IMG/VR virus record: IMGVR_UViG_3300029349_000013
Location: 1-20,316 of that record
Direction: 5' to 3' (one strand)
DNA from: a virus
DNA: 20,316 nucleotides
The notes below the pieces were generated by a model. It had not been told where the DNA came from and made no database searches. It saw nothing but the letters and a program-made list of their open reading frames with translations. The stretch's first letter is position 1, and each line of letters opens with the position of its first letter. Shown here piece after piece: positions 2,894 to 20,214 of this stretch. Both the position numbers and the translations under genes were made by a program.

Positions 2894-5800
2894 TCAAGGT
2901 AGATTGATGAAGTCAAAAACGTCACTAGCGATAGCGGCCACTTCCAGAGTGATTGAGTTTACAGATGTCTCGCTATAGCGATCGCCTGGGTCACCAACAG
3001 ATCCAGAGTTAACCATTAACACTCCGTTTTTAAAGACTAAAAATCTTTCATTACCAATAGTATAAGTTGCGGGGGTGGTTAAAACCGTTCCAGTCAAGGA
3101 TGTAACGGTGTGTCTTGATAAAGGCGCTGCACTTAACCTTTCAAAGGTGAAGATGTCAGACAGGGCAGCAACAGCCCCCAGAGTAATAGAAGTGATGGAA
3201 GTTTCTGAATAATAGTCCGTAGGGGCACCCAAGGATGAGGTGTTCATCAAAAGTCCATTCCTAAACACCATCAAAGACTTATCACCAATGACGTAGGTGG
3301 GTAAGGAAATGACTGAAGTGGAATAGCCAGAGTTATTCAATAAATAGATAGGTGAATTAGATTCATTCATTAAAACTAAGTAGTCTGAACTGGAAAGCAA
3401 CAACCCTAACTCAATAGAGTTGACGCTGTTTTCATAGAATCTATCAGATGGAATCCCAAGCCAAGGCGAATTCATCGTCCTAACCCCATTCCTGTAAACC
3501 TTCAATTTATTAGTTCTTGGGGTGTAATTTCCACCAGTTAGAATGGTATTTCCAATTTCCCCGTAAACATAGTTCAAGAAAGCAGGGTCATTAGACAAAG
3601 CAGAGGCGTCGATTACTACTGTGTCGCCCACTGTGTTGACGTTGATGTTAGTTCCGGCTGCTATGGTTCTGAGTTGTAAGGCCACCCCAACTTTACCAGA
3701 GTAGATTTGACCAGTTCCAGTCCCAATATTAGTTCCTACGTTAACCTCGCCGCTACCGCCCAATCCACCAAAGAAGGCGGACCCTTTGACGTCTATACGG
3801 AACAGTAATTTATCGCCTGGGATGATGTCGAAATTCAATTGGACTTGATTGCTTAAGGTGTTTAAGGCACCAACCTCAACCCAGTCGTCTTCTGGAATTA
3901 GCTTTTGGCCATTCAAGTGAATCTCTAAAGACCCACTACCCACTATGTAGTTTTGACCTGAACCAGAAGCTCTTGAGTCATTAGGGATGGTTATGTTGGT
4001 TCCCTGAATCACTGGGCCGTCTATTTCATTAGAGTTGCTGGCCCCTGAATCCAAAACACTTAATTCTTCTTCGTAAGTGTTATCTACGATTTCTTTAAAT
4101 TTGGGATTGATTAGAACGGTGTTGTCATCTACCGCTGGTCCAATTTCGACCACTGAGATTCCAGGGGTGTTTGGGTAAACTGAAGTTCCTTGACCAGCCA
4201 CACTGGAAACTAAGACCAATTCACCTTGAGTGAATGGTCCACCCAAAACATAAGCCTTACCTGTGATTTGAACCTTGCCAGTAGCACCATTCAAAATAGT
4301 CTCAGCCACTACCCCAAAAGTAGTTTTAGAAGTAGAGATATTGGTGTTGATGGCTTTGTCTATGAAGTTGTTACCTGTATTTTTCAAGTAAACCACTTGC
4401 CCTGGGGATAAGGTTCCACCAGAGTTGTTCACAAACAAATCAAAGGTCTTCTTATGGAAATGTAAAAGGTCTGCGTCCGTTCCAGAGATTAGGGTTTCGG
4501 CTTGGGCGCCAGTGATGTTAGTGTCTGCAAAAAAGGCTACCGCTTCTGCTAATTCTGGGTTTTCTACCACCTCAGTGATGTTTAAGGAAGGCTGCCCATT
4601 CCTATCCAACATCAAATCCCCATCACTATTTACCCAAAGACCATCGTCAGTGGGTAATAAAGGGGAAGAGAGTTGTCTAATGAAAGTAATCCCAAGCGGA
4701 TCTAACACCCCGGAGATGTAAACATCCCCATCAACTGAAAGGGCTTTGTTTCCAGGGGTTCCATTAATTACCACTGGTGAACCTATGTTCACGTTAATGA
4801 TGTTGCCGTTGTCGTAGGCTTGTTGCAAAGTAGTGGTAGAGATAGGCAAAGCGGTGAAATAAACCCCACCATTACCATCTATTCTAAAGGTTAATACATC
4901 GCCGACCACTAAGTTGTGCTCGAATTGGACTTGATTGCTTAGGCTACCCAAGGTTCCAATCTCAGTCCAGTCTGCACCCAAGAGTTGTAACTGGCCGTTC
5001 AAAAATACTTGTAGGTGGCCAGCGCCAACCACATAATACTGAGCTTCTTCTAAGGCCCTAGAGTCGTTGGGTAAAGTGATGATCGCTGGGGCTGATATGG
5101 GGCCTGTGACTTCGTTGTCGTTGGCCGGTGAGCCAGAAACCAACACCTTGTTCTCATCATAAACATTGCCGACTGAGGTGGTGTGATGAAGGTTGAATAG
5201 GTTGGTTGCGCTTCTAGTGTATAGAACGAAGACGTCCTGATCGGTTGGGACCTGGGAAGAGGGGGTGATGTAAAGACTTCCCACTAAATCGCCGTCTTGT
5301 GCGGTGGGGGATGTTTGAATATTGTTGATTATTTTGTAGGCGCTTCTGTTCACCCTTACCCAGACAGAGTGGTTATCTGGGATATTTCTTTGGATAGAAG
5401 GGTATGAATTGATGGCTAAAGCATCTATTTCATTTAAGTTAGTGGATCCATTGATTAATATTTTTAGGTTAGTTAAGGTAGAAGAATAACTGAACTCACC
5501 AGTAGATCCATTAAAAATCACCCCAATCTGATTCAAGACTGAGATGTTTTTGTTTTGGCTGTTTTCGTTATCATTTATGGTGTAAGAAGAAGACCTAACT
5601 ATTTCCTGCCCATCCATGTAATAAACAGAGGTGGAGGATAGCCTATAGAGTAAGATGAATTTGTTTTCTTCCAAAAGGAAGTTAGAGCCTAAGCTTTCGA
5701 CCGTAGGGACTATGGTGGTGTTTTTGTTTCGGTCTATCTCGATAACCAGAGCTTCATTTTGAAGCAGGGAATAGGCACCCAAGGTAATGAGTTGGGCTGG

Positions 5801-8023
5801 ACTGCCTGGCTTTCTAATCTCTATGGAACCTGGCTGAAAGATTAAATCTTGAGCTGGACCATTGGTCATGTTCCTTATATTCAATTTACCAATGAAAGTG
5901 ATACCACGATCCTGAACCCTATCAGCCATCATTGCGGTTAACTTGGCCGCTCGGCTGGTTAATGAGTCATCTACTTCAGTGTTGAAATTGGAATGGCCCT
6001 TAACTGCATTAAAAGAATCAGGAACTACATAATCTGGACTGGTCTGAGATAAAGACTCCATCCCAATGTAATTAAGGATGTTTACGGTATCTGGCTCGTT
6101 GATGTCGATGCTTTCGCCTTGGATGATTCTGGCGGCACCAAACTCAGTCCTTAGATTTACTCGAACACAAGTAACGCTAGAAGCTGATGGAGGAGAAACC
6201 AAGTCTGTGTTTGCGTTGTAGGGGATTTGTATTTGAGTTGGCCCCCTCACATTGCACAAATACTCACCTGAGCTATAGCTGTCAAAAAGGGATAGGGTGT
6301 CTTTGATGATTACTTTTTGTCCGCTTTCAAAGTTGTGATTAGCGGATTCTAATTGAAACCCATAAGCCGTTGATTTGGCTGAAGTAGTTAAAATAGCCCA
6401 AGAAACATCCGCATTGGCTACGGCAGTGGTTGCACTTGAATGAACCCAAGCCTCAGTGGTGCTTTCAACTTCCACCAAGTAGGTGCCGTTATGGCCACTG
6501 GCGTTACCGATTACGATTCTGTCCCCATTAACCAATGAGTGAGCGCTAGGGAAAGTTAGCTTAGCCCTAAATCCATCCCCATCAGAGATGGCAACGTTGT
6601 TGCTAAAGAATTCAGAGATGATGGAAGAGATGCCCATGATGGTATCGCTTCGGTTGGCCAGCCAATAGAAATTACCACCAGCCAAGAACCCATCTGAATC
6701 GGCCCTGTCCATAACCTTGATATCTGAGTTTAAAAACTCGCCCTTGGTGTAGACAGCAGCATCAGAAATGGTAGGGCCAGCGTAAACATCGGACAAAATA
6801 ACAGAAACAGCATTAGATGGGGTGGTGGAAGAACCAGCGCCATTCAAATTAGTTTTGAACTCTTCTACTCTAAGGTAGAGGTAGTCGTTGTCCCCTAATC
6901 GCTTAATCCAATCGCCCTTGGTTAAATTTTCAAACGAATTTAAAGAGCCATTAATGTAATTTACCCCATTAATGAAATTAACGTTGCTGTTAAGTGAGTT
7001 AATTGAAAGTCCTCTTTCAAATTCAACAAACATGACTTGTTCATTTGCAAGAGTTACACCAGTGGTAGGGTTCTCTCTAATGATTATGTCCCTGGGGTCA
7101 TTGGTCTTTTTATAAACTATGTCTTCGGACCAAGTCACCTTCCCTGGGGTGTTTTCATCATGCGACCACCTTCCCTTGGACTTGATATTGGAAGCCAAAG
7201 AGTCATCGAACAGATTCACTAAGGAAAGGGTGGGGGTGCTTTCGTACCAATAAGTGGTTCCACTAAGTTCTAACAACTTAGTCATAACCGCATCCATCCA
7301 CTCTTTGTAAGAGGTGATGTTTTTGTCGCCACCAAAGAATGGCGTTGGATCGCCTGAAGAGGTGATGGTTACGGGCGCTTCATCTCTTTGATAAAGGGAC
7401 GAGGGTAAAGATTTCCAAGCGTAGGTGTTGTTTTGATTGGGGGTAATGCCACCAGACCCTAACCTGAAAACCATATTTCGACAATCTGTAATCGATGTAA
7501 TTACAGATGAGTTCATTTGAACTTTACAAATTGGAATCACATTATCTGGGAATGTGGAAACAGAAACATTGACTTGCACTACCAGGGTGCTTTGAGTACT
7601 CACTTCTTGGGTGAATTCCCCGCCAGCCCCACCATTCAAGTCCACATCAAAGAAAGCTTTGGTGTCTGAAGCCGTGGAGACGGATGACAAAGTCAAGTAA
7701 ACATAGTTAGTTGCGTTTAATCTGAGCTCTGGGGATAAGGGCGTAGAAAGGGCATTACCCTCTGGCAAGGCATAAAAGAAAGACCCTGCACTGGACTCTG
7801 GATTAAAAAGGACTGAGTCGGCCACCTTAATAGAAATGGCAGAACTTCCTATAGACAAAGGTGCATCAATAACCTCAAAGCCCTTAAGGACCATTGGGTT
7901 AGAGCCTACAAAAGTCTTGATTAAGTGTCTAAAGTCAGAACTGACGAAGCTTTCGATTGACAATAAGTCTGTCAAATCCACTCTTTGCTGAGAACCCAGT
8001 AGTAAACGTCCTAAAACAGCCAT
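2894..8023 (-). CDS. Very large modular tail fibre / baseplate-decoration protein
   Basis: The protein has 1709 aa. The ATG at 8023 follows GAGGGG (in TTTTGAGGGGCTGCA). Residues 1-200 form a beta-rich N-terminal region. Residues 231-262 carry GGDKNITSYKEWMDAVMTKL and a WYES element, followed by GRWSHDE and W/DIVYKK segments. Two 'H-x-L/F-x-x-G-x-x-V-x-I' modules lie at 484-543 and 551-622. Residues 690-710 contain TSRAAKLTAMMADRVQDRG, a pattern I associate with large phage fibre proteins. A 90-residue module occurs twice (971-1060 and 1333-1421). LLHFH (1186-1190) is followed by a decoration-like beta domain (1194-1310). One copy of the neighbouring fibre's repeat lies at 1427-1474. Three C-terminal repeats close the protein (about 1497-1555, 1576-1630, 1651-1709). 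There is no catalytic motif, signal peptide or membrane segment. It lies directly after the baseplate genes, so it probably forms or anchors fibres on the baseplate periphery. Confidence 0.75.
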   Translation of the reverse strand: MAVLGRLLLGSQQRVDLTDLLSIESFVSSDFRHLIKTFVGSNPMVLKGFEVIDAPLSIGSSAISIKVADSVLFNPESSAGSFFYALPEGNALSTPLSPELRLNATNYVYLTLSSVSTASDTKAFFDVDLNGGAGGEFTQEVSTQSTLVVQVNVSVSTFPDNVIPICKVQMNSSVITSITDCRNMVFRLGSGGITPNQNNTYAWKSLPSSLYQRDEAPVTITSSGDPTPFFGGDKNITSYKEWMDAVMTKLLELSGTTYWYESTPTLSLVNLFDDSLASNIKSKGRWSHDENTPGKVTWSEDIVYKKTNDPRDIIIRENPTTGVTLANEQVMFVEFERGLSINSLNSNVNFINGVNYINGSLNSFENLTKGDWIKRLGDNDYLYLRVEEFKTNLNGAGSSTTPSNAVSVILSDVYAGPTISDAAVYTKGEFLNSDIKVMDRADSDGFLAGGNFYWLANRSDTIMGISSIISEFFSNNVAISDGDGFRAKLTFPSAHSLVNGDRIVIGNASGHNGTYLVEVESTTEAWVHSSATTAVANADVSWAILTTSAKSTAYGFQLESANHNFESGQKVIIKDTLSLFDSYSSGEYLCNVRGPTQIQIPYNANTDLVSPPSASSVTCVRVNLRTEFGAARIIQGESIDINEPDTVNILNYIGMESLSQTSPDYVVPDSFNAVKGHSNFNTEVDDSLTSRAAKLTAMMADRVQDRGITFIGKLNIRNMTNGPAQDLIFQPGSIEIRKPGSPAQLITLGAYSLLQNEALVIEIDRNKNTTIVPTVESLGSNFLLEENKFILLYRLSSTSVYYMDGQEIVRSSSYTINDNENSQNKNISVLNQIGVIFNGSTGEFSYSSTLTNLKILINGSTNLNEIDALAINSYPSIQRNIPDNHSVWVRVNRSAYKIINNIQTSPTAQDGDLVGSLYITPSSQVPTDQDVFVLYTRSATNLFNLHHTTSVGNVYDENKVLVSGSPANDNEVTGPISAPAIITLPNDSRALEEAQYYVVGAGHLQVFLNGQLQLLGADWTEIGTLGSLSNQVQFEHNLVVGDVLTFRIDGNGGVYFTALPISTTTLQQAYDNGNIINVNIGSPVVINGTPGNKALSVDGDVYISGVLDPLGITFIRQLSSPLLPTDDGLWVNSDGDLMLDRNGQPSLNITEVVENPELAEAVAFFADTNITGAQAETLISGTDADLLHFHKKTFDLFVNNSGGTLSPGQVVYLKNTGNNFIDKAINTNISTSKTTFGVVAETILNGATGKVQITGKAYVLGGPFTQGELVLVSSVAGQGTSVYPNTPGISVVEIGPAVDDNTVLINPKFKEIVDNTYEEELSVLDSGASNSNEIDGPVIQGTNITIPNDSRASGSGQNYIVGSGSLEIHLNGQKLIPEDDWVEVGALNTLSNQVQLNFDIIPGDKLLFRIDVKGSAFFGGLGGSGEVNVGTNIGTGTGQIYSGKVGVALQLRTIAAGTNINVNTVGDTVVIDASALSNDPAFLNYVYGEIGNTILTGGNYTPRTNKLKVYRNGVRTMNSPWLGIPSDRFYENSVNSIELGLLLSSSDYLVLMNESNSPIYLLNNSGYSTSVISLPTYVIGDKSLMVFRNGLLMNTSSLGAPTDYYSETSITSITLGAVAALSDIFTFERLSAAPLSRHTVTSLTGTVLTTPATYTIGNERFLVFKNGVLMVNSGSVGDPGDRYSETSVNSITLEVAAIASDVFDFINLP
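2897..3535 (-). repeat. Three C-terminal protein repeats (55-60 aa) in the 1709-aa gene
   Basis: Copies lie at about 3535-3359, 3298-3134 and 3073-2897. Shared features are a G(D/N)(K/E) or TNK step, L-x-V-(F/Y)-(R/K)-N-G, a short loop ending G-x-P/G-x-D-(R/Y)-(F/Y), E-(T/N)-S-(V/I)-x-S-I-x-L, and a closing SD-(Y/I/V)-(L/F)-x-(L/F) strand. The last copy ends at the C-terminus, placing the repeats at the distal end of the protein. Confidence 0.75.
3761..5113 (-). repeat. Duplicated 90-aa module in the 1709-aa gene
   Basis: Two non-adjacent copies lie at about 5113-4844 (residues 971-1060) and 4027-3761 (residues 1333-1421). Both run NE(V/I)(T/D)GP, I(T)(L/I)PNDSRA, YxVGxGxLx(V/I)xLNGQ, a DW element, LSNQVQ, GDxLxFRID. 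They are separated by the HxH motif and the decoration-like domain. The downstream copy is followed by a repeat of the 414-aa fibre type. Confidence 0.75.
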
Positions 8024-8080: not shown

Positions 8081-10186
8081 TCAGTCGATAGGGTTGTCGG
8101 TCTGTTGGTATAGATCAAAATCAGAGTAGAAGATTTCAGGAAACCTGATAATAAATTTAAGGAAAATACCAACGCTCTTAACTTTTTCCAAAGTCTCTTC
8201 CAAAATATACCTAGCTTGTAATGGGTCGGTTAAGTAAAAAGAATACTCTTTCCCTAACCCAGAGAACACGTGCCCACCTCTTCGCCTTAAGGCCACCAAG
8301 TTAGATCCCGCTGGATGTGGCTTTTCAAACACATAAGACGGATCTAAAACAATGGAATTGGTTCCAGCTTTACGCAAATACTTAACTGGCCCCTCTTGCC
8401 TGTCGGTTCCATACTCAAAGATAAGGAACCCTTGTTCATCAGGGACAGTGTTGGCGCCTACCGGTAAATTCAAAACCACATTCCCTGGAAAAATAGGATT
8501 AGTGATTTGAGCAGTGTAAGAGCTTAAAACAAAGGATGCATTCTCGTCATACAAATACCCACCCAAGATTCCAGTGTTGGTATTGGCTGAGGTTAAATAG
8601 ACTTTTGTTTTGGCCGCCAGGCCAATTCTCTCATACCTAACGCTTCCAGTCGCCGCCACTTCCACAGGACCCAGAGATTGATACGAGAAAGTAGTTCCAG
8701 AACAATCACTTACTATGAAGTTGCCGTTGAAATTGGTCCCAGTGGTAACCCCGTAGATTAAAACCGCCTCACCATCTTTCAAATCATGCGGGACAGAGGC
8801 GGTGACAGTGACCTTGTCGTTTATGTCCCTGGACAAACTAACTAAACTAAATTCAAATATCCCACTGGATTTAGGTAGGGCTGGGGTGATTCCTGTTAGG
8901 ATGTCCCCTGATTTACCCGTATAAGTATAGGATTTTCCTATATCGAATCGACCCTGAATTTCGTGTGACGTGTTTGTGTCAGTGGAAATGGTTAAGATGT
9001 GAGTTTGGATCTCTTCCACCGGTTCTAAACAAAATTTACCAGAACTGGGCCACTCACTTCCATCTATCAAGACCATGGACGAATCTGACAACCTATCAGC
9101 CATTTCCCCAACCAAACCATTTAAGTGAGCTGATCCAATCAGCCCTCGCCTAACTATGGGTGGGTTACTTGGCATCTCAATAATCACTTCCCCTGAATTG
9201 ATTTCCCAAACCAAAGCTCTATTCTTCTTAGTGAAGACCACTGACTTCTGGCTTTGGAAGAATTTTACAAAGTAATCAGGGTTTAGAGCATGATCGAAGT
9301 TGCCGGGGGTAGAGAATAGGTTGGTAAGAGAAAAGGAATTATTGATGAGGTCTATAGCCTCTACTTGAAAGGTTCCCTCATTCCCTGGGACATCTATTAT
9401 CACGTAGTCACCAACCCCAACCAAACTTAAATTAATAGGGTCGCCGCCTATGGATTGGAAGGTGGTGGTACTGCCCACTTTAGTGATGGTCCATTGGGTG
9501 TTGAGTGCATTACCAGAACCCTCTATAAACCCTTGCATTTTAAGGGAAATATTAGCTCTTCCACCAGTTATCTCGATGCTGCCAGTAGATCCTATTGTTT
9601 TGGTAAAGATCCGAATGTATTGTTTCTTGGAAATGCGATCATCAAAGATGGCAGCAAAAGAGTATTGGGCTTTTCTGTTTATGGCCGCCACTATCTCTTC
9701 TGCTGTTGCCTGACTTACATCACTGAAATCGTTGGCATAAAAATGTATTTCCTCAGTTTTAGTTCCATCTACTGAGTAAGAGATTTCGTAACCATCTTTT
9801 AGGAAATAAGGTCCAGCTGTATAATTTGAGGTAAAAGCGGTGGTGGCGTCCCTGAAAAAGAAGATGTCCAATAGGTCGTTAAATACTTGCTTGACCTGCT
9901 TAGGCTTATAGCTTAGGATGGGGATGTATCGCCTGAAGGTGGGGTCATCCATTCCAACCACTTTAGGTCTGGATATTTTAGAGTTGGCTGCCAACCTATC
10001 AAGATAGGGCCGCTCTGAACTTGAGATAAAGAACTGCTTCCTTACTTCTTGAACCAACTCAAACACATCGTCATCACTTCCCCCGGCTGCCTCTATCAAG
10101 GCTTTCCAGTTAGGGTTTTGCCTGGTCTTAAAGACTGGGTTGATTTGATTGTGTATTTGGTCTGATGACTTTTTATTACTGGCCAT
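8081..10186 (-). CDS. Putative baseplate protein in the gpI (tail protein I) position
   Basis: This 701-aa protein directly follows the J-like gene, where P2-type phages encode gpI. The ATG at 10186 lies 8 nt after the previous stop, which is part of its TAGGA ribosome site. The N-terminal 100 residues (NPNWKALIEAAGGSDDDVF, ERPYLDRLAANSKISRP, FRRYIPILSY) resemble the start of baseplate wedge proteins, where a 'YLDRLA' step is common. Residues 125-213 form a module shared with the J-like protein (GPYFLKDG, DFSDVSQATAEEIVAAIN, GSIEITGGRAN). Residues 457-505 hold an 'H-D-L-K-D-G' beta module (NGNF, TTFSYQS) also found in the J-like and 1709-aa proteins. The C-terminus (ARYILEETLEKVKSVGIFLK) is helical then beta. 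At 701 aa it is much larger than P2 gpI (about 180 aa). It probably links wedge to fibre attachment. The gpI assignment is by position and weak resemblance. Confidence 0.6.
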   Translation of the reverse strand: MASNKKSSDQIHNQINPVFKTRQNPNWKALIEAAGGSDDDVFELVQEVRKQFFISSSERPYLDRLAANSKISRPKVVGMDDPTFRRYIPILSYKPKQVKQVFNDLLDIFFFRDATTAFTSNYTAGPYFLKDGYEISYSVDGTKTEEIHFYANDFSDVSQATAEEIVAAINRKAQYSFAAIFDDRISKKQYIRIFTKTIGSTGSIEITGGRANISLKMQGFIEGSGNALNTQWTITKVGSTTTFQSIGGDPINLSLVGVGDYVIIDVPGNEGTFQVEAIDLINNSFSLTNLFSTPGNFDHALNPDYFVKFFQSQKSVVFTKKNRALVWEINSGEVIIEMPSNPPIVRRGLIGSAHLNGLVGEMADRLSDSSMVLIDGSEWPSSGKFCLEPVEEIQTHILTISTDTNTSHEIQGRFDIGKSYTYTGKSGDILTGITPALPKSSGIFEFSLVSLSRDINDKVTVTASVPHDLKDGEAVLIYGVTTGTNFNGNFIVSDCSGTTFSYQSLGPVEVAATGSVRYERIGLAAKTKVYLTSANTNTGILGGYLYDENASFVLSSYTAQITNPIFPGNVVLNLPVGANTVPDEQGFLIFEYGTDRQEGPVKYLRKAGTNSIVLDPSYVFEKPHPAGSNLVALRRRGGHVFSGLGKEYSFYLTDPLQARYILEETLEKVKSVGIFLKFIIRFPEIFYSDFDLYQQTDNPID
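9548..9814 (-). repeat. Module shared between the 701-aa and J-like proteins
   Basis: Residues 125-213 of the 701-aa protein: GPYFLKDG, a D-G turn, DFSDVSQATAEEIVAAIN, a strand ending IRIFTKTIGS, then GSIEITGGRAN. The same order appears in the 2473-aa protein at residues 373-458 (GPYELVNG, DFSNINAATLIEISVAIN, RGGEDA) and less completely at 505-587 and 1600-1633. Confidence 0.75.
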
Positions 10187-10194
10187 TTAAAATC

Positions 10195-13100
10195 CTATGA
10201 AATCAAGATGTTATCGGGTAAAATCAAAGCTTTCTGATCGCTACTAACCGCTATTCGCTCTTCTGTTGGCGACGGGGTTGTAAAGGTTATGGCTGCAATA
10301 CCAGAGATTTGCATACACCTTGCAATAATAGCACTTAAGATGAAGTCCTCGCCAACACCCAATTCAGAGGTGTAAGAAATGATAGTGCTCTTGATGTCGT
10401 TTGAGATGTCACTTAAGTTAACCCCATCCCTAACAGTAATCTTAAGGGCAATCTTAATGTTCTTGGCCAAAGGAGGCATAACCTCGATTTGTCCACCCAC
10501 AGCCCTTTTGCCAGGGAAGTTCAGTGTGTCTGAGTCCAATCCATCAACTATTCTTTGAACGGACCTTAAGATACCTGTGTAATAACTGTATCCGTCATTA
10601 CCAGACACAACACTAACGTCAAAACCTATCTTACCCATGCTTTTAACTTTAGTTCCGTAACTTACTGATAACTTAGAGTATTTTGTTGCTGGGGTTAAAA
10701 ACAAAGACCTCTCGTTGCTATTAAATTGAGAGATAGCGGTCCTAACCACTTGCCTATAGGATTTGTAAAGAGAGCTTGAGTTTTCAGTGATATAGAAACC
10801 GTCTGGCTTAGTAAGAGGAACGTTAGATTCCGCCACCCCGCCATTGTTTTGAACCCTCAAGAAAGGTCTTAAGGTAGAGCTATTGACCCCGATTTGAGTG
10901 ATGACCCTAACACCAGAGTTGGAAGTATTGAACCAGGTGCTTGAGGAAATGTTTTCTACTACCAATTCATCCCCAGGGAAAGCAGAGTCCCCATCAAAAA
11001 ACTTAATATCATCCTTACTCTTAAGTAAGGCACCAGCAAAAGACCCACCCTCTGACAAAGCGATTCCAGTAGAAGTGGAAGTTTCGCCTCTGTAGTTTTG
11101 GCCTAAGGTGATTTGAGTTCCTGAGATAGCAATGACTTGAAGGGCTAAACTGATGTCGTCCTCTGGCTTACGAACCCAATCACCCAAAACCACGTTCTCA
11201 AAATAATCTGGGGAACTTGCGGTAACTATGTTACTTCCAGACACCCAGTTAACTACATTAAGAGAGTCGTTAAAGTTTTTATAAGTATGTAATTCTTCTA
11301 CAGAAGAAGAGTTCTCGAAAATGATGTGAGTGTTACTTAAAGCTAATACCCTGTATTTACCTGCATTTTGAGCACTGAAGGTCTTTCCAGACAAAACCAT
11401 CCAATCATCGACAGCAACCCCGCACTCAGTAAACCTGGGTGCGTCGCCGCTTACGTAAGATAGTCTAAATAGGTTGTTTACCCCTAAAGACTCGATTTTG
11501 TATTTGGTTTGAACTATACCGTTTTTGGTCACAAAACCACCTGAGTAGGTGCTATTGACAATTGGCGCCCCCAAGGTTACTGTAAAGGATCTGGAATCAG
11601 GGACTGTTAGAACTGTGAAAATTCCATTCAATCCAGTATTGGCGTCAGAGATTACACAAGAATCCCCTTCACCAAGCCCATGGTCTTCAGAGCAAATAGC
11701 TGAAACGTTTACACCGCCAGTGACTGTGGTTAAAAGAATGGCTGCTGGCGCTGAGTGTGCTGATCTAAACCTAACAAAAGGACTGGGGAATACTTTGAAA
11801 TTAGCTAATCCTAACGGGGCATTAGATTGAATTTGGCCGTTGTAATTGATGACGTCCAAATAATTAGCGCCAACCCCAATGATTGGAAAGCCACCAATAT
11901 CATCCTCACCATTGTTCCAGGTCTTGTTCTTAGCGTTCCAGGTATTAGATCCAGAAACCACCAACAAGTCCCCAACAACAGCGTTAGAAACATCAGTTCC
12001 AGGGATTTGAAGGCCAGTAAAGTTGGCATTAAAGTTTGCATTGGACTGTAAGGTAATGCTGATTTTGTCTACGATATCGTTCACTGAATCGGTGCTCAAG
12101 ATTGAGCACATGATCTTGTGAGTGGCTGCTGTATATACAGTTCCAGTTGGTGCGGTTATGTTCCCGTCCACAGAAAACCACAAAGCAAAAGTTGTGCCAA
12201 GTGAAGTCTGGAATGAGAAGTAATCACCTTGGGTTGGAGCTGATGAAACCGTTAGACCAAAGGTGATTGGGGTGGAAACGCTACCGTTCACATAGTTAAT
12301 CACTTCCAGGGCCGCTGTTCCTGGGGTTGCACCAGTGGCAGGGTACTCATTGGGTGCAGACAAAGTGGACCCATTAGCGTCCGCTGACACGTCGAAATAA
12401 GACCCTGCATCAGTGTGCTGATACCTGTAAACCATGCCAGCAGACCTGGAATAAGAAGCACTTACGTCTGAAATGGCCCATTGAGTAAACTGAGAACTAT
12501 AAATTTCCTTTTCTTTATACTCAAAATCAAAATTAATTCCACTGGAATTCACCACCGCTATATAATCGCCACCAGTTAATCTGGACGCTCTCTTAGACGC
12601 TTTAGTGTTATAGACTTCAACCCAATCACCTTTAGTAATAGTGGGTGGATAAGCAAATACTTTAGCTTCCAAAAGACCAGAGTTAATTTGTGGCTCGCTT
12701 AGGATTGAAAATTCAGCCAAATTAGCTCTACCACCAACCACTTCCACCAAACCATCGCTACCAAACTTCTTGGACTTGATTTGAATCTTCCTGAAATTAT
12801 CAGATGAGTCCACGTCACAAACGATAGGTAATTGGCTCAAAGCCTTGTGTTTTAGGTGGTGCAAAATGTTTTTATTGGTCCTGGGCATCATTTTGAAGAT
12901 TTCACCCAAGTCGGTTGTGTTGGGGTTTGGGCAAGTATCCATAGCATAAATAGAAGGAACCACACCAGGAAGAATTAACCCCTTCTTTAAAACAAAGTGT
13001 GGACTGGTGTTAGCAAAGGTTTTTATAGTGCTGGTTGAGTCATATAAAGCGATGAAGTTGTGCAAGTTAGATAATGGGTCTGGGTTGTGCCCGTAAGCTA

Positions 13101-16100
13101 ATGCACTGCTATTTCCAGAGTAAGAATAAGTGTCTTCTTTCGTGGACTTAGGGAAGGTCAGGGAAGCGATTCCAACTGGCACGGCTTCCACTATGCTGCT
13201 TCCATTATTTATGTTGTCTGTGATGGTTTGGCAATCATTTGATATTAAAGGGAAAATATAAAGGCTCTGAGAGTTGGCCAAAGTTTCCACACCGTCAAAA
13301 GAGCCTTGCTGAGTTATTGCAATAGAGAATCCACTGGTTCCAGCGGTGGCATCATTCACCGACCCATTGAAAGAAGTAGTGATGGTTGCAACACCTAATG
13401 AGAATGAGGCATTGAAAGAAGAGTCTGAGTTTACAGCCAACGAAGTTTTATTGGCTATGGTTGTGGCTGAATCCCCTAAAGTGAATGGGACTTGGATGCT
13501 ACGGGCTGCGCCATGCAAGGGTTCTGGGGTGATTCCAGAGTTGTACCAAACCGCCACACTTCCACTTAAGTCATGGATTGTAAAGTAATTTCCAGCTATG
13601 GAAATATCACTGGTTCCAGCGGTATTTAAGGTAACCGACATTCCAGAGTCAGGCCCACCAGCCCCAACAGTAACCGGGCCATTAAAGGTATTGGTTACGG
13701 TCACAACATTGCTCAATGAGGTTGCAGTGAATTTAGGATCAGAGCCTACCACCAAGGCGGTCTTAGTAGCCACCATAGTAGAGGTGTCTCCAGTAGCCAC
13801 GGTAGAAATTTCCACATACCTACTTGCGCCAATAACGGTCGGAGTGGCGGTCCCTACGTTGTCCACGTCGTACCAGAAAACAACCATCCCTGCATCATCA
13901 TAGAGAGTGAAGTATTCGCCTGATGAAACAGTGGTTATGGTGTTGCCTTGAGCCGAACAGTTCACGTTGTGAATAGCGGGTGTTCCGATTATGTCGGGTA
14001 AAACAGTCACGTCAGTGATTTCTGGTTGCCCCAAGGAAGTGATGACTCCGCTGGGGTTGTAAATATCCAGATATCTGCTTGGGATGTTCACGTTGTTGAT
14101 GTAAAATTGTCCACGATTTCCAGCAGTTACACCAGAAGATTCAGTGATGGATAAGATGTCGCCCACTAACACGGTTGCAAAGTTGGTGGCTATGTTGTCA
14201 AAAGTATACCTAAAAAGGTTTGCGCCAATGTTAGTTACTTTGAAGGTGTGCCCACCAGTAACCCCTACCACCCTATTGGCATCGCTCTGGAAGAAGTATT
14301 TGGCGTGCGAATTGGCCGCTGTGGTTGTGTGAATAATTTTGTGAGCTTGAGATGGCAAGGTAGGATACTCTAAAGAGAATCTAATTGAATCCCCATTAGG
14401 CCCATACTCTTTAGCCCTAATTAGCATGGTGGCGTTTCCTGAGGCGGCCCCACCGGTTCTGTACCAGTTCCTGGCCTTAAACCAAACAGCATAATCTGAG
14501 AACTCAGTCTCATTAGTGGTTTTTGACCAGAATTGAAGGCTTCCAAAGCTTATCCCTGGTTCGTTATCTTGGTCCCATGCTGAAAAAGCAGTTCCTGAAG
14601 GGATGTATTGAGAATTGATTCTACCGGTTCGCCAAAAGTTTAAGTTTATGTTTTTGTTGGTGGTGTCGCCGTCAATCGCAAAAACACAACTGTCTTCATT
14701 GGATATAGACAAAGGATTGAAGATTCCAAATCTATCCCCAGCCTTATAATCAAAAATGGTAGTCGGGGTCATGATTTGAGTTCCGGCCTCGTCACTACCC
14801 ACAAACTCTTTTACATACCTGAATTGACCCTTGTTTGCACCAGTCTCTATGAAGATTCCGTCTTCATACGAAATCACAGAGCTGTTTAATACCCCAGTAG
14901 AAAGAAGTAGTTCTGAATAGTTTACTGGATTTGGTGTAGCGGACAAGGTTAGCGTTGAGTTTAGGTCTGAGTAAGTAACTCGGTCCAAAAACACATTGCT
15001 TTCATTGAGGCTGCTCATCCTGAATAAGGACGATAAATCTTTGTCCGTTCTCTTGGTTGCTACGTGGGTTTGTTTACTTCCTTGCAGTTCTTGCTTGGTT
15101 TCAAAAACATTGGCTATCCGGCCAGAAGATACTGGTAAGAAAATGTTACCAACGTCATCACTTTCCGTAGATGACGTGACTTTGATTTTGTTGGTTCTGT
15201 AAATAGACCCTTTTACATTCGACAAATTAGTAGTCACTGAGTTGACTATGTCAGTCAAAGTGGCTATAGTTGGGTTTGGTAAAGAGGATGCCTTAAAGAT
15301 TTGTGGATAGGTGCTACTGTTGAAAACCACCACGTCTTCAGATGCCGCTACTGAATAAGGTCCACCAGCAACCACACCCACATTAACAACGTCTACGTAC
15401 GAGTCAGACCCTGCTGTTAAGTGTGAGCCTTTGTTGATGATTTTAAAGATCCCAGAGTTCCCCACTGGAACCCACCCAGCACTTCTTTCGGCTATGTAAA
15501 GGTAGTCATTTAGTTGCGCTGAAGAGAACATGGTCAAAGTTGAACCAGTGACTCTCATTACGTCTGTAGAGGGGGTGGAAATGGTGATGGTGTTTCCAGC
15601 CGCTGGATTTACCGACCTAACCTCACCCGCACCATCAACGCACAGCACCATTTCAGATGGTCGCCCATCTGTGTCTAAGCTGAAGTTATAGCTTCCCACT
15701 GAGGTGGGCTCAGAAACGTACGCCCCTTTAGCGTCTATGATCCCGGCTGAAACCGTATCCCCTACGCTAAGCTCCCGTTTTAATTGTAAATTTCCTGTTT
15801 GTCGATTTAGTTTAAAGTCTGAGTTTTTACCAATATTTTCGGCGACTTGCCCAGAGAACATTTGGCTAAAGTAAGATCCGCCCAGAATTTTGATAGTGGA
15901 ATCAGACCCAACCTTATTGCTCTTCAAGGACAGGAACCCAGAACTGCTTTCTTCTGTAGTTACACCAGCGAACTTTTTATTAAACGCCTCTGCCCATTGG
16001 CTAAGGGATACTGAGCTTAAGGCAGCGTTATCGAAGTCTAAGCTGCTAAAAGACCGATCTTGTAATGGGGTTCCATCTACTTGAACTATCAAGTTCCCAG

Positions 16101-17616
16101 AAGTGGAAATAGACCAAGAGGAAAAGTTGGCAGTGTTGACGGAAGCAGAGCTTTCTTTCTCAGACAACAGTTCTGAATTTAAGTAAAGGCTTATGTATCT
16201 GTTTTTATTAGATGGGAACTTAAGGATACTATTTGAGTAAAGGGTTGCATCTTCACCACCCCTCAAAGGAAGGACTTGGATGAATTCAGCCTCATGGGAG
16301 ACTGGGTAAAGTAGTAGTCTGGATGAAGATTCAGTGAGCCTACACCTGAAATTAGTAGCCCTTTCGTTTATGGCTACGGATATCTCAATTAAAGTGGCGG
16401 CGTTAATGTTAGAGAAATCGCTGGTCAAAAATTGAATAGACTCTTCCGTCTCATCTATTTGGACTTTTAATTCCATGCCATTGACGAGTTCATAAGGCCC
16501 CTCTGCTTTGTTAATGACTTGTGGCCTGGGTAATGGGAAGTTAGATAGTTGTAAAAACTCTTCCCCACCAGTGGCTGAACTAAGTAGAACGTCCACCCCT
16601 TGGCCATCATAAGATGGTTGAAGTCCAGTTCCATCGTCTACGTAAATTATGGACGGTTGACCAAATTCAGGTGGTTCATTTATGACCGCACTTTCGATTT
16701 GCTTACCATCGTCCTGGTCTGAAACCCCAATAATAGAACTGAGGATGCTTTCCCTGGTCCCTCTGGCCAAAGTGGCAGCATAACTCTTAATTCTTTCTCT
16801 AAAATCCTCGTCACTTTCTACGTCTCGACCATCAGTCAACGGGGCATTATTAACCACCAAGGCACCAGAGAAAGGAAGTGTCACGAACTCAGTGATGGTC
16901 CCTATTCCTGCATTATTGATACTGCCTGCTGCCTCAGAAAAGATTTGAACACCAGACACCTCTTCTTCCCCAGATGGAAGGAACACTTCCCTGAGTAAAG
17001 AAAAGACCACTTCTGGGTTTTGGTTGTTAGCAGGGATTCTTACTTTGGTACTGTTTTGGATCAGGATGTCTGGCTGTCCTTGAGAGTTCACCACAGTGTC
17101 TGAGATAAGGTGGTCTTTTTGAAGAGCAGAAGAAAGGTTGATGGTGTAAAAGGAACCGTTGTTCACTATGCTTGTATAGGAAATTGGCCCCTCGAATTGT
17201 TGGGTTCCACGACCTAAGTAAATAGAGCCAGTGGCTGACCAGGAACTGGCATCATTGACGTAAATGATAGTGCTTCCGGCTATAGGGGGCGGCTTAACAG
17301 CGTAAAGGGAAGTGGATTGCTTGGTGATGTTGCCATTTTTTATGGTAACTGTCCCAGTGGACTGCTTGGCAGTGAATCTGGTTAGAGAGTAGTCTTGTCC
17401 CCTACTGTCCAAGTCTTGATCCTTAAGGGCGTCTATGCTTAGAGTTTCGAGAACTGAAAGGATATCTACGCTATTTTGAAAGTCTTGAGTGGCTATTGCC
17501 TCTAAAAGAGTGAGTAAGACGGAACCGTTGTTGATGTCGTTTACTGGCGTGTCCGCCACCATCTTCCTAACGAGTTCGCCCAAGATTTCAGAATAAGTTC
17601 GCAAAACTACAGCCAT
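10195..17616 (-). CDS. Giant baseplate J-like protein with about 2000-residue modular insertion
   Basis: The protein has 2473 aa. The ATG at 17616 follows AAGGTGGG. Baseplate_J family signs are clear at both ends. Residues 1-300 show an N-terminal helix pair, the AIATQDFQNSVDILSVLETL element and DGRDVESDEDFRERIKSYA with LARGTRESI (262-291). Residues 2330-2473 carry VMPPLAKNIKIALKITVRDG, YTSELGVGEDFILSAIIARC, then a G-I-A-A-I step and a final LPDNILIS. J proteins (P2 gpJ, T4 gp6 relatives) form the wedge ring around the baseplate hub and are usually a few hundred residues long. Between the two parts lie repeated beta-rich modules: the GPY/GGRAN type (373-458, 505-587, 1600-1633), a tandem pair (1222-1332 and 1333-1440) with a third relative at 1787-1880, several GDW-type segments, and an H-G-L module (1962-2016). 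There is no frameshift or stop, so it appears intact. Its gp25-like neighbour upstream and gpI-position neighbour downstream support the call. Confidence 0.88.
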   Translation of the reverse strand: MAVVLRTYSEILGELVRKMVADTPVNDINNGSVLLTLLEAIATQDFQNSVDILSVLETLSIDALKDQDLDSRGQDYSLTRFTAKQSTGTVTIKNGNITKQSTSLYAVKPPPIAGSTIIYVNDASSWSATGSIYLGRGTQQFEGPISYTSIVNNGSFYTINLSSALQKDHLISDTVVNSQGQPDILIQNSTKVRIPANNQNPEVVFSLLREVFLPSGEEEVSGVQIFSEAAGSINNAGIGTITEFVTLPFSGALVVNNAPLTDGRDVESDEDFRERIKSYAATLARGTRESILSSIIGVSDQDDGKQIESAVINEPPEFGQPSIIYVDDGTGLQPSYDGQGVDVLLSSATGGEEFLQLSNFPLPRPQVINKAEGPYELVNGMELKVQIDETEESIQFLTSDFSNINAATLIEISVAINERATNFRCRLTESSSRLLLYPVSHEAEFIQVLPLRGGEDATLYSNSILKFPSNKNRYISLYLNSELLSEKESSASVNTANFSSWSISTSGNLIVQVDGTPLQDRSFSSLDFDNAALSSVSLSQWAEAFNKKFAGVTTEESSSGFLSLKSNKVGSDSTIKILGGSYFSQMFSGQVAENIGKNSDFKLNRQTGNLQLKRELSVGDTVSAGIIDAKGAYVSEPTSVGSYNFSLDTDGRPSEMVLCVDGAGEVRSVNPAAGNTITISTPSTDVMRVTGSTLTMFSSAQLNDYLYIAERSAGWVPVGNSGIFKIINKGSHLTAGSDSYVDVVNVGVVAGGPYSVAASEDVVVFNSSTYPQIFKASSLPNPTIATLTDIVNSVTTNLSNVKGSIYRTNKIKVTSSTESDDVGNIFLPVSSGRIANVFETKQELQGSKQTHVATKRTDKDLSSLFRMSSLNESNVFLDRVTYSDLNSTLTLSATPNPVNYSELLLSTGVLNSSVISYEDGIFIETGANKGQFRYVKEFVGSDEAGTQIMTPTTIFDYKAGDRFGIFNPLSISNEDSCVFAIDGDTTNKNINLNFWRTGRINSQYIPSGTAFSAWDQDNEPGISFGSLQFWSKTTNETEFSDYAVWFKARNWYRTGGAASGNATMLIRAKEYGPNGDSIRFSLEYPTLPSQAHKIIHTTTAANSHAKYFFQSDANRVVGVTGGHTFKVTNIGANLFRYTFDNIATNFATVLVGDILSITESSGVTAGNRGQFYINNVNIPSRYLDIYNPSGVITSLGQPEITDVTVLPDIIGTPAIHNVNCSAQGNTITTVSSGEYFTLYDDAGMVVFWYDVDNVGTATPTVIGASRYVEISTVATGDTSTMVATKTALVVGSDPKFTATSLSNVVTVTNTFNGPVTVGAGGPDSGMSVTLNTAGTSDISIAGNYFTIHDLSGSVAVWYNSGITPEPLHGAARSIQVPFTLGDSATTIANKTSLAVNSDSSFNASFSLGVATITTSFNGSVNDATAGTSGFSIAITQQGSFDGVETLANSQSLYIFPLISNDCQTITDNINNGSSIVEAVPVGIASLTFPKSTKEDTYSYSGNSSALAYGHNPDPLSNLHNFIALYDSTSTIKTFANTSPHFVLKKGLILPGVVPSIYAMDTCPNPNTTDLGEIFKMMPRTNKNILHHLKHKALSQLPIVCDVDSSDNFRKIQIKSKKFGSDGLVEVVGGRANLAEFSILSEPQINSGLLEAKVFAYPPTITKGDWVEVYNTKASKRASRLTGGDYIAVVNSSGINFDFEYKEKEIYSSQFTQWAISDVSASYSRSAGMVYRYQHTDAGSYFDVSADANGSTLSAPNEYPATGATPGTAALEVINYVNGSVSTPITFGLTVSSAPTQGDYFSFQTSLGTTFALWFSVDGNITAPTGTVYTAATHKIMCSILSTDSVNDIVDKISITLQSNANFNANFTGLQIPGTDVSNAVVGDLLVVSGSNTWNAKNKTWNNGEDDIGGFPIIGVGANYLDVINYNGQIQSNAPLGLANFKVFPSPFVRFRSAHSAPAAILLTTVTGGVNVSAICSEDHGLGEGDSCVISDANTGLNGIFTVLTVPDSRSFTVTLGAPIVNSTYSGGFVTKNGIVQTKYKIESLGVNNLFRLSYVSGDAPRFTECGVAVDDWMVLSGKTFSAQNAGKYRVLALSNTHIIFENSSSVEELHTYKNFNDSLNVVNWVSGSNIVTASSPDYFENVVLGDWVRKPEDDISLALQVIAISGTQITLGQNYRGETSTSTGIALSEGGSFAGALLKSKDDIKFFDGDSAFPGDELVVENISSSTWFNTSNSGVRVITQIGVNSSTLRPFLRVQNNGGVAESNVPLTKPDGFYITENSSSLYKSYRQVVRTAISQFNSNERSLFLTPATKYSKLSVSYGTKVKSMGKIGFDVSVVSGNDGYSYYTGILRSVQRIVDGLDSDTLNFPGKRAVGGQIEVMPPLAKNIKIALKITVRDGVNLSDISNDIKSTIISYTSELGVGEDFILSAIIARCMQISGIAAITFTTPSPTEERIAVSSDQKALILPDNILIS
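11977..13953 (-). repeat. About 110-aa repeats inside the J-like gene
   Basis: A tandem pair lies at about 13953-13621 and 13620-13297, with a more diverged third copy at about 12258-11977. Shared order: G-(E/N/D)-YF-(T/S)-(L/I/F), a short turn, V/L-(F)-W-(Y/F), a GA(S/A)R or ATHK step, a GD(T/S) or TDS element opening a helix of the form 'TSTMVATKTAL', then F-x-A and a VTVTN or ATITT strand. The first pair is spaced about 109 residues apart. Confidence 0.75.
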
Positions 17617-17672: not shown

Positions 17673-19262
17673 TCAATTCGGTGGGTTGACTGAGAAGCTA
17701 ATGGGGATAACTGATCCACCCCCAGATAAAACTACCCCCAGGCTAATCACGAACCCTGAGTAGGTATCATTGCTATAGGCTACGTCAATAAAGTCTAAGC
17801 GATCGAACCTGGGGTCATTTAGGACCTTAGAAGTGATGTTTTCCACCAAAGCCGCCCTGATTTGCTCTGGGGACTCTGTGGTCGATCCGATATTGGTCTT
17901 GATTCCATAGCCTTCGTGCCTAAAAAGACCACCCTCTTCCGTGCTTAGTAAAATCTTTAGGGCCTGCAAGGCATTGCTTTTTCCGTAACTGAGTTGGATG
18001 TCCCCGCTTCCAGAGAAATTTAAGTCACCAGTTTCAGACAAAAACAAATCCACACCCGCTCTTTTCTCGTCCTCACCCTTGGCCTTAAGGAACCATGGTG
18101 TGTCATTCCCTACTGAAGGTGGCAGAGGTTCAGAGGATGGGATTAGGATGAAAAAATTGGAATTAATGGTATTCGGCTTAAAAACTCGAATATGGGATAG
18201 GTCTTGGACCTTATAGATGTCCAAGTTAGCCTCACCGCTCAACTCAATAACAATTTCCCCAGACACAGGTATTTCGATAATGTTTACTATACTTCTTTGG
18301 TCTGGCGAGTTCTCTACTGTGCTTTGCAGTACAACTATTTGATTTATATATAGTTTTTGGATATTAAGTTGGTTTTGTAAGTCGTATTTACCTATGTTAA
18401 TCCTGTTACCGTTACCATTTGAAATTAAAGATATTTTTTCGCCTATTTCGTCGATGTAGGGGGGCTTTAGGTTATTGGCTATGGCGATGTCTATCCACTT
18501 ATCCTGATCGTCTAAGGTTCTGTGAGCTAAAGTTTGAAGGCTTTCCCCAAAGTTGAGCCTAACCAAATTACCTGAGTTGTAACTCTGGATGTTGAAGTTT
18601 GGGTTATTGGCGTTTTGTTTCGCAAAAGCAAACGGATCTACCCCAGAGGTAGGCTTAAGGATAGAAGAGTTGGCTATGATTGTGTCTATGGCGTTAATCC
18701 CCAACTGGAATTGTCTAGACAAATTAATCTGAGGGATGGTTTTGTTTAAAAGCTGAGATGCACTCTTTCTTCCATAGACTTTGTTGAAATCTTCATCCGA
18801 CCCACCTATGATGTCTGAAACATAATCCCTGCCAGCGGCCATCTTTTTTCTAAGGGTAAGAAAGTCATTCCTTTTGAAGTTGCCCACCCTAATGATTTCA
18901 CTGGTAACTATGGAATTCTCTTCTTTAGTTAAAGCGGTCGAGCTTATGGAAATGTTGTCAAAAACTGAGTAATAATCAGCTATTAATGAAGAGTCGGATG
19001 GTCTGGTTGGGTTACTGCCCCTCGTAGCCTCTATGACCGCATCAAACCCCTTAAGCTCCGATGAGAGTCGGTCTGGGTCAGAGTAGGAATTTAAGTTGGA
19101 AATGATGTCCAACCTAATTTGTGACCAACTATCTTTTATGTAGTTAAAACGGTACTTTAGGATAGATGGGATGTCCGCTATGGTCATCGGGTCTTTTTGT
19201 TCAGTCTTAATCCACAAGTTTAGGTCTGAGACGGCATAATAAGCATCTGAAATTACTGACAT
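17673..19262 (-). CDS. Baseplate wedge protein with LysM-like module and gp25-like C-terminal domain
   Basis: The protein has 529 aa. The ATG at 19262 lies one base after the previous TGA, with a GGGCGG-type ribosome site inside the upstream gene. Residues 1-200 are mainly helical and unrecognised. Residues 230-285 (LVRLNFGESLQTLAHRTL, then DKWIDIAIANNLKPPYI) match the 'GDTLxxIAxRxLGDxxxWxxLAxxNxLxPPYI' pattern of LysM-like modules in phage baseplate proteins such as T4 gp53. Residues 402-527 (GVDLFLSETGDLNFSG, GDIQLSYGKSNALQALKILL, EGGLFRHEGYG, LNDPRFDRLDFIDVAYS) match the gp25/gpW wedge family. In T4, gp25, gp53 and gp6 meet in the wedge. Here gp53-like and gp25-like parts share one chain next to the J/gp6-like gene. 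Its probable role is a core wedge component at the tube-sheath initiation ring. The gp25-like call is stronger than the LysM call. Confidence 0.82.
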   Translation of the reverse strand: MSVISDAYYAVSDLNLWIKTEQKDPMTIADIPSILKYRFNYIKDSWSQIRLDIISNLNSYSDPDRLSSELKGFDAVIEATRGSNPTRPSDSSLIADYYSVFDNISISSTALTKEENSIVTSEIIRVGNFKRNDFLTLRKKMAAGRDYVSDIIGGSDEDFNKVYGRKSASQLLNKTIPQINLSRQFQLGINAIDTIIANSSILKPTSGVDPFAFAKQNANNPNFNIQSYNSGNLVRLNFGESLQTLAHRTLDDQDKWIDIAIANNLKPPYIDEIGEKISLISNGNGNRINIGKYDLQNQLNIQKLYINQIVVLQSTVENSPDQRSIVNIIEIPVSGEIVIELSGEANLDIYKVQDLSHIRVFKPNTINSNFFILIPSSEPLPPSVGNDTPWFLKAKGEDEKRAGVDLFLSETGDLNFSGSGDIQLSYGKSNALQALKILLSTEEGGLFRHEGYGIKTNIGSTTESPEQIRAALVENITSKVLNDPRFDRLDFIDVAYSNDTYSGFVISLGVVLSGGGSVIPISFSVNPPN

Positions 19263-19263
19263 A

Positions 19264-20214
19264 TCACCGCCCTAATATAGATTTGACGCTGTTTATGGCG
19301 CCTTTGGCATTACCTAATCCACCCTTAACCTTACTTAGTAAGCTGGGCTTGTCTTTACTCAATCCAAGTTCAAACAACTTTGCTTCTAGAGAGTCGTCCT
19401 CTAATGGCTTGTCCGCTGAGGTTAAATCGTAGGCAGTTAAAGAGATATTGTAGTTGTACATCATCGGGGCGGAAGCATCCCTGGTCATCGTGAACTTATT
19501 AATCACGCAACTGTAGCGGTTATTGTCTTTGTAGTTTATGAAGGATAGGGGGGCAGTAGAGTCAGGTTTTTTTGGAAGGGGTGGGAGAAATGGTGCGGCT
19601 GAACTTAAAAAAGAGGATGCTTTAGCTAACCCGCTTGCAATTAATTGATCACCCAAACTAACCTCTGCTGCCTTTTTAATAGCGTTCTTATATTCTTGGA
19701 AGAAGAGATAAAGTCTATGGAAGGCATAATAACCAGTGCGCTCTAATTTAACCCCAGATTCATGAGGTTTAAGTGGCCCGCCCGTAGCTGAATTGACGGC
19801 ATCTCTGGCTAAATTTTTGGCCTTGTCTAATTTTGCTAATTTATCAGAAAAGAATCCACCTAAAGAATTGGCGAATAAAAAACCACCTTGGTAAAATTCT
19901 CTACCGTCCACTTTTTGAGATACTTGAGTTAAATTATCACCAATAATAGGAGCAACGACCGGCGTATACTTAGGGGCTATGCCTGTGGTCCCTGAGATTG
20001 AAATATCAAAATACCTCTGATCTGAGTGGACTTCTACTGTTCCGCCTATAGTAGGGATTAATTCAGTAGCGTAATGAGTTGTAATGGTTATGTTACTTGG
20101 GTTTAAGGGTAAGTAAATGAGCTTCCTTTTACCGCCAACATTAGACTCAAAGGCGTATGGAAGGGACTTATACCAATTTTCTTTTACATTTTCTATATCG
20201 TAAGTTCCAGCCAT
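19264..20214 (-). CDS. Putative tail tube / baseplate hub-associated protein
   Basis: The protein has 316 aa. The ATG at 20214 follows AAAGGA (in TTAAAGGATTAAAAT), which overlaps the previous stop region. Residues 30-82 (RKLIYLPLNPSNITITTHY, ELIPTIGGTVEVHSDQRYF, ISISGTTGIAPKY) are beta-rich and look like a tube- or hub-binding phage tail domain. A lysine-rich helical stretch follows (about 123-140). FHRLYLFFQEYKNAIKKAA (165-183), a proline-rich linker (207-217), a second beta part (LSFINYKDNNRYSCVINKFT, then RDASAPMMYNYNISLTAYDL), and a basic glycine/lysine C-terminus complete it. There is no catalytic motif or membrane segment. The next gene is the LysM/gp25-like wedge protein, so a role in tube-to-baseplate connection (the part played by T4 gp48/gp54) is plausible. 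That is inference from position and I cannot name the family. Confidence 0.55.
   Translation of the reverse strand: MAGTYDIENVKENWYKSLPYAFESNVGGKRKLIYLPLNPSNITITTHYATELIPTIGGTVEVHSDQRYFDISISGTTGIAPKYTPVVAPIIGDNLTQVSQKVDGREFYQGGFLFANSLGGFFSDKLAKLDKAKNLARDAVNSATGGPLKPHESGVKLERTGYYAFHRLYLFFQEYKNAIKKAAEVSLGDQLIASGLAKASSFLSSAAPFLPPLPKKPDSTAPLSFINYKDNNRYSCVINKFTMTRDASAPMMYNYNISLTAYDLTSADKPLEDDSLEAKLFELGLSKDKPSLLSKVKGGLGNAKGAINSVKSILGR

Follow-up and report, generated by a model that had tools for sequence, protein, structure and literature searches.

The giant J locus

The window analysed here is a stretch of viral DNA of 20,316 nt (IMG/VR record IMGVR_UViG_3300029349_000013, positions 1 to 20,316). 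On its minus strand, at 10195..17616 including the stop codon, lies an intact, uninterrupted reading frame of 2,473 residues that encodes a giant Baseplate_J protein, hereafter giant J. Directly upstream is P0005 (529 aa, 17673..19262, minus strand), a baseplate protein by phrog_975 whose C-terminus is gp25-like (hhalign 94%, E 1e-7); by eye, it appears to be a LysM-like baseplate protein fused to that C-terminus. P0006 (316 aa, 19264..20214, minus strand) is tail-tube-initiator-like, matching PF23980 at 9.6e-5, which is below the cut-off.

The next gene on the other side, P0002 (701 aa, 8081..10186, minus strand), lies where the third wedge protein (gpI/gp7) would be encoded. Set against the gp25/W - J - I order, the window thus has a gp25-like protein upstream of giant J and, downstream in the I slot, a gene whose N-terminus shows a very weak profile match to gpI-like proteins (hhalign, 18%). 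Assignment of P0002 to gpI/Tail_P2_I by profile is not upheld because Pfam and PDB searches gave nothing and the hhalign match is too weak; from gene order together with that match, P0002 looks like the third wedge protein. It also looks as if it carries an insertion of its own, with beta modules of the giant J insert placed between conserved N- and C-terminal parts.

P0003 (1,709 aa, 2894..8023, minus strand) is a probable fibre, poorly conserved and unlike the J insert. Inspection by eye revealed three imperfect repeats of ~70 residues (...FRNGxLM...YSETSxxSITL...) at its C-terminus (window 2894-3600), and four repeats of ~50 residues (FKxKTGxNLEFKxLVAGxNxTI) in P0004 (window 1631-2875), which is almost unconserved. 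One similar copy of the P0004-type repeat can be seen, again by eye, near the P0003 C-terminus.

An earlier note on this DNA read the frame as one J protein in two halves, parted by a huge modular insertion, that perhaps forms a decorated baseplate rim and takes over part of the job of separate wedge or fibre-network proteins. The first part stood, as set out below. The rim would be one possible form of the extra layer, and the takeover gained no positive evidence: the gp25-like protein, the gene in the third wedge slot and large fibre genes are all still present. Searches for T4 gp9/10 and gp53 in related genomes were uninformative, as no control gave a signal.

Both ends belong to one J protein

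Pfam Baseplate_J (PF04865) matches giant J as a whole at 3e-10 in two stretches, and a six-frame search shows that the order of the profile (length 255) is kept: residues 219-286 fall on profile positions 63-132, a match over the cut-off, and residues 2349-2432 on positions 179-254. The phrog_6 profile ('baseplate wedge subunit') matches at 5.4e-22 in three stretches; both ends contribute, and profile positions 285 and 294 bracket the gap. Taken alone, the last 164 residues match Baseplate_J (7.1e-5, 22.7 bits; curated cut-off 21.1) and phrog_6 (2.6e-9), and across family members the C-terminus alone matches Baseplate_J in seven of nine and phrog_6 in all nine. The N-terminal part matches PDB J chains at 8.9e-10 in a profile search. 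Used separately, N-terminal and C-terminal profiles both recover phi812 ORF62, phiCD508 gp65 and diffocin CD1371. The two motifs that the earlier note had quoted were both found, at about residues 262-276 and 2414-2429, and a J match at the C-terminus, whose absence would have told against the earlier reading, is present.

The N-terminal half of the J core is residues 1-335 (16612..17616, minus strand), as indicated by the match to PF04865 positions 63-132, the PDB J chains, hhalign, the secondary structure of the AF2 model and Foldseek. It comprises the helical part of the core bundle, the wing, the trifurcation helices with DGRDVESDEDFRERI, and the first strands of domain III. The C-terminal half, residues 2331-2473 (10198..10626, minus strand), is the remainder of domain III and contains YTSELGVGEDFILSAI; it is indicated by PF04865 positions 179-254, phrog_6, hhalign and Foldseek.

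The single-insertion reading was examined by excision. Eleven ordinary J proteins (ten of 351-407 aa and one of 586 aa, in keeping with the few hundred residues said to be typical) were aligned and compared with the family profile from which residues 336-2330 had been removed. The insert-free core of 478 residues matched ordinary J over 349 columns, ordinary residues 1-355 (hhalign 99.9%, E 1.8e-33). The N half alone matched ordinary residues 1-211 (E 5.5e-25) and the C half alone 239-355 (E 1.4e-10). As controls, equal-size slices of the insert gave no match to ordinary J (hhalign E 0.13 or worse), and core halves in swapped order aligned over only 211 columns. Since the excised core is collinear with ordinary J whereas insert slices and swapped halves fail, giant J is one J gene with a single insertion of about 2000 residues, as had been proposed; the insertion falls between positions that are ~28 residues apart in ordinary J. 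Ordinary J proteins of ~350-404 aa, namely Mu gp47, XM1 gp16, diffocin CD1371, phiCD508 gp65 and phi812 ORF62, are collinear with the whole core and lack an insertion at this site.

Structure models agree with this. AF2 was run on the two halves as separate chains, with alignments of 48 sequences, so no single model covers the assembled core. The half-models are mostly strand, with mean pLDDT of 79.0 and 80.7; their pTM values of 0.41 and 0.60 make the global arrangement unreliable. In Foldseek searches the best 26 PDB matches of the N-half model are all baseplate J or wedge chains. The C-half model likewise best matches baseplate J chains, with the pyocin PA0618 C-terminal domain at TM 0.72 (target-normalised; rmsd 2.6, 92 columns), and its matches include Cis11 and Alg11. 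T4 gp6 is matched structurally by both half-models; some further Foldseek hits are to a capsule lyase and to domains D2-D3 of the flagellar cap FliD. The best match of the C-half model in a viral structure library is an uncultured-phage 'Baseplate protein J-like'. Predicted structures of three UniProt entries so named, from uncultured Caudovirales phage (A0A6J5KUV1, A0A6J5L250 and A0A6J7WUL1), match this model, A0A6J5KUV1 with TM 0.59-0.60 and 38% identity; the entries give the J name and do not mention an insertion. Between them the matches of the two half-models cover the J fold (core bundle, wing, trifurcation and domain III). Prediction did not show the two ends in unrelated domains: both half-models best match J wedge proteins, to which nearly all of their structural matches belong.

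In XM1 gp16, domain I (core bundle plus trifurcation) comprises residues 1-86 and 179-196, domain II (the wing) residues 87-178, and domain III, which dimerises with the neighbouring wedge, residues 192-404 (PMC10457771). When the ordinary-J profile is aligned to solved chains (XM1 57-260 on profile 46-232), the insertion site falls inside domain III. Solved J chains that span the site have at most ~33 extra residues across the entire match. The wing of giant J is near-normal, the extra mass lying in domain III instead.

The insert and its modules

The insertion occupies residues 336-2330 (10627..16611, minus strand; 1,995 aa, ~213 kDa), with boundaries good to about 10 residues either way. 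It is beta-rich, about four times the size of the ordinary J core, and has a computed mass of 213.5 kDa per copy. Sequence searches of the insert against PHROG and PDB gave no match. Profile self-comparison distinguished at least three repeated module types, here called alpha, beta and gamma, which bears out the earlier description of repeated beta-rich modules between the J ends.

All modules lie on the minus strand. Module alpha occurs at residues 364-449 (16270..16527) and 490-578 (15883..16149), both seen in self-comparison and in comparison with P0002, and at ~1554-1633 (12718..12957), a copy detected via its match to the P0002 product. Self-comparison places module beta at residues 662-774 (15295..15633), 1110-1192 (14041..14289), ~1980-2106 (11299..11679) and 2211-2282 (10771..10986), the second and third of these being seen in the P0002 comparison as well. 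Module gamma, found by self-comparison and in relatives, forms a tandem pair at residues 1211-1320 (13657..13986) and 1323-1440 (13297..13650), with a third copy at ~1789-1885 (11962..12252). One member of the tandem pair is missing from most of the first-aligned relatives, and among relatives the number of gamma modules per protein ranges from 0 to 7. Residues 1964-2017 (11566..11727) resemble an endosialidase-type small beta barrel (PF12195, below cut-off).

Three of these types recur in the P0002 product: alpha (97.5%), beta (85%) and the endosialidase-barrel type (95%). Because it has the same module types as the J insert, the P0002 product looks like a partner of giant J and not like something that giant J has replaced. 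The modules were also searched for in the P0003 product and not found there.

Relatives, conservation and selection

Phage records yielded one match, to Myxococcus phage Mx1, the sole cultured member found. Its WNM70274 ('baseplate protein J-like protein', 1,925 aa, OR576727) belongs to the same family and has the same insertion site; it is 28.6% identical to giant J over 53% of the query, and 36% identical in the N-terminal 335 residues. It differs in having a shorter insert, of ~1,439 residues, in which gamma modules were not found. The word baseplate is absent from the Mx1 genome announcement (PMC10720576), and a literature search on the Mx1 baseplate found nothing. J identity is thus already known, via the Mx1 annotation and the UniProt names; a search of open papers, covering part of the literature, turned up no description of the giant J insertion.

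The N-terminal profile found 75 loci in viral contigs and the C-terminal profile 146, two sets that overlap and in which some records are near-duplicates. Other contigs carry 59 complete homologous ORFs, 1,930-2,922 aa in length; no shorter relative was found among complete viral-contig ORFs, and the largest giant J, of 3,881 aa, comes from one phage and is intact in two records. Other phages thus share the insertion, the 48 representatives combining a near-constant core (478-496 aa) with a giant insert (1,438-2,444 aa, median 1,894). Two matches turned up in a host search of MAG contigs, in the unrelated bins Cyclobacteriaceae and Mariprofundaceae, where the binning is untrustworthy. The giant J group is widespread and consists almost wholly of uncultured bacterial viruses.

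Fifteen related records are large (146-177 kb), and as the only clear J gene in 14 of them giant J must act as the wedge protein. The remaining record, G012, which underlies L032, has another Baseplate_J match, a weak one, at 71648-71908 in a 752-residue frame.

Taken from the two distinct pairs with dS below 1, dN/dS is 0.09 and 0.20 for the insert and 0.04 and 0.13 for the core; these ratios show purifying selection on the insert. Over 41 loci its median coverage is 0.96 and its identity 42%, the baseplate neighbours P0005 and P0006 having identities of 47% and 39%. Median coverage of P0003 is 0.10, a figure lowered by loci that end early, and P0004 was found once, as a weak match. Judged from these alignments, the insert evolves as its baseplate neighbours do, unlike the fibre genes, and the insertion is conserved and not an accident, with beta modules gained and lost.

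Proposed role and alternatives

We consider the chances somewhat better than even that the following holds as a single explanation: in a phage with a contractile tail, the giant ORF encodes a wedge protein of the J (T4 gp6-like) kind, the insert leaves and re-enters the J core at one place in the wedge-joining domain III, and an ordinary 478-residue J wedge fold thus bears, from that domain, a string of small beta modules that adds up to ~2,000 residues. If, as in T4 and XM1, from which the numbers are borrowed, there are two J copies per wedge and 12 per baseplate, the ring would carry ~2.5 MDa of insert (12 x 213.5 kDa). The inserts would project from the baseplate periphery as an arm or skirt, and this peripheral layer may brace neighbouring wedges and dock the P0002 protein and the fibres; fibre binding could thereby move the ring and start contraction. 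Giant J is, then, probably a normal wedge protein whose outer domain has a built-in beta-domain arm, the arms together making a layer that would surround the baseplate.

T4 gp6 has the same wedge role. In T4, however, peripheral mass resides in separate proteins such as gp7, of 1,032 aa (PMC10457771), whereas here the extra mass is within J itself. We put forward more tentatively, as a little short of an even chance, that this is a distinct architecture in which the wedge-wedge joint carries a conserved beta layer of ~2.5 MDa that interlocks with the modules of the next protein, making the peripheral ring covalently part of the iris and not an assembly of separate proteins.

Could the insert instead be a set of cell-surface binding domains mounted directly on the wedge? 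It is built of beta modules, one of which resembles the endosialidase barrel, the module number varies, and the capsule lyase and FliD domains are among the Foldseek matches. However, neither an enzyme nor a named binding domain was found in the insert, it is under purifying selection, and it keeps its 42% identity and 96% coverage even at loci whose fibre genes can hardly be recognised. Because the insert is so conserved relative to the fibres, we judge this reading unlikely.

Slightly less likely still is that the insert folds down and inwards round the central spike as a cage that opens on contraction. The best-studied enlarged J proteins, Alg11 of AlgoCIS (whose domain IV is residues 278-643) and Cis11 of the Anabaena tCIS, do enclose the spike in a cage (PMC8894135, PMC8894136), and in AlgoCIS cage opening is proposed to come before iris expansion (PMC13314943). 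Like giant J they are J-family proteins with extra domains within one chain, and both are among the Foldseek matches. However, the ordinary-J profile aligns to Alg11 749-989 and Cis11 950-1167 in a single stretch that runs across the giant J site, and since the core matches in one stretch, their large extra domains lie upstream of it. Those domains are in the wing-equivalent part and far smaller, whereas the giant J insert sits inside domain III and, at 1,995 residues, is more than five times the size of Alg11 domain IV. The difference in insertion site lowers the cage reading, and because its insert sits elsewhere in the fold giant J should not be classed with the cage-type proteins.

Some structural proteins of phages undergo cleavage, and this indirect argument is all that speaks for giant J being processed during assembly, with the insert as a scaffold or a separate protein. 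Such processing is improbable: domain III needs both halves, the ends are conserved together and core length is near-constant. Finally, a chimeric contig or the wrongful joining of neighbouring genes, to which the one broken copy (in record L062) might point, can safely be rejected as the origin of giant J, given the 59 complete ORFs on other contigs, the sequenced isolate Mx1, and two intact records of the very phage that is broken in L062.

In L062 a frameshift near residue 850 splits giant J (8992-11541 and 11526 onwards). Two further records of this phage (L063 and L078) are intact, and the break is probably a sequencing error.

As a wedge part, J is conserved among contractile injection machines, and its known large enlargements are at another site. 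A peripheral layer grown out of domain III, as we propose, would give J a second insertion-tolerant site, and a conserved fourfold enlargement at the wedge-wedge joint, in at least 100 contigs of uncultured phages, would amount to a second route to a baseplate periphery. The idea is directly testable because Mx1 is cultured and has a contractile tail, ~100 nm long (PMC6070905). The Mx1 counterpart of P0002 is annotated 'kelch repeat protein'.
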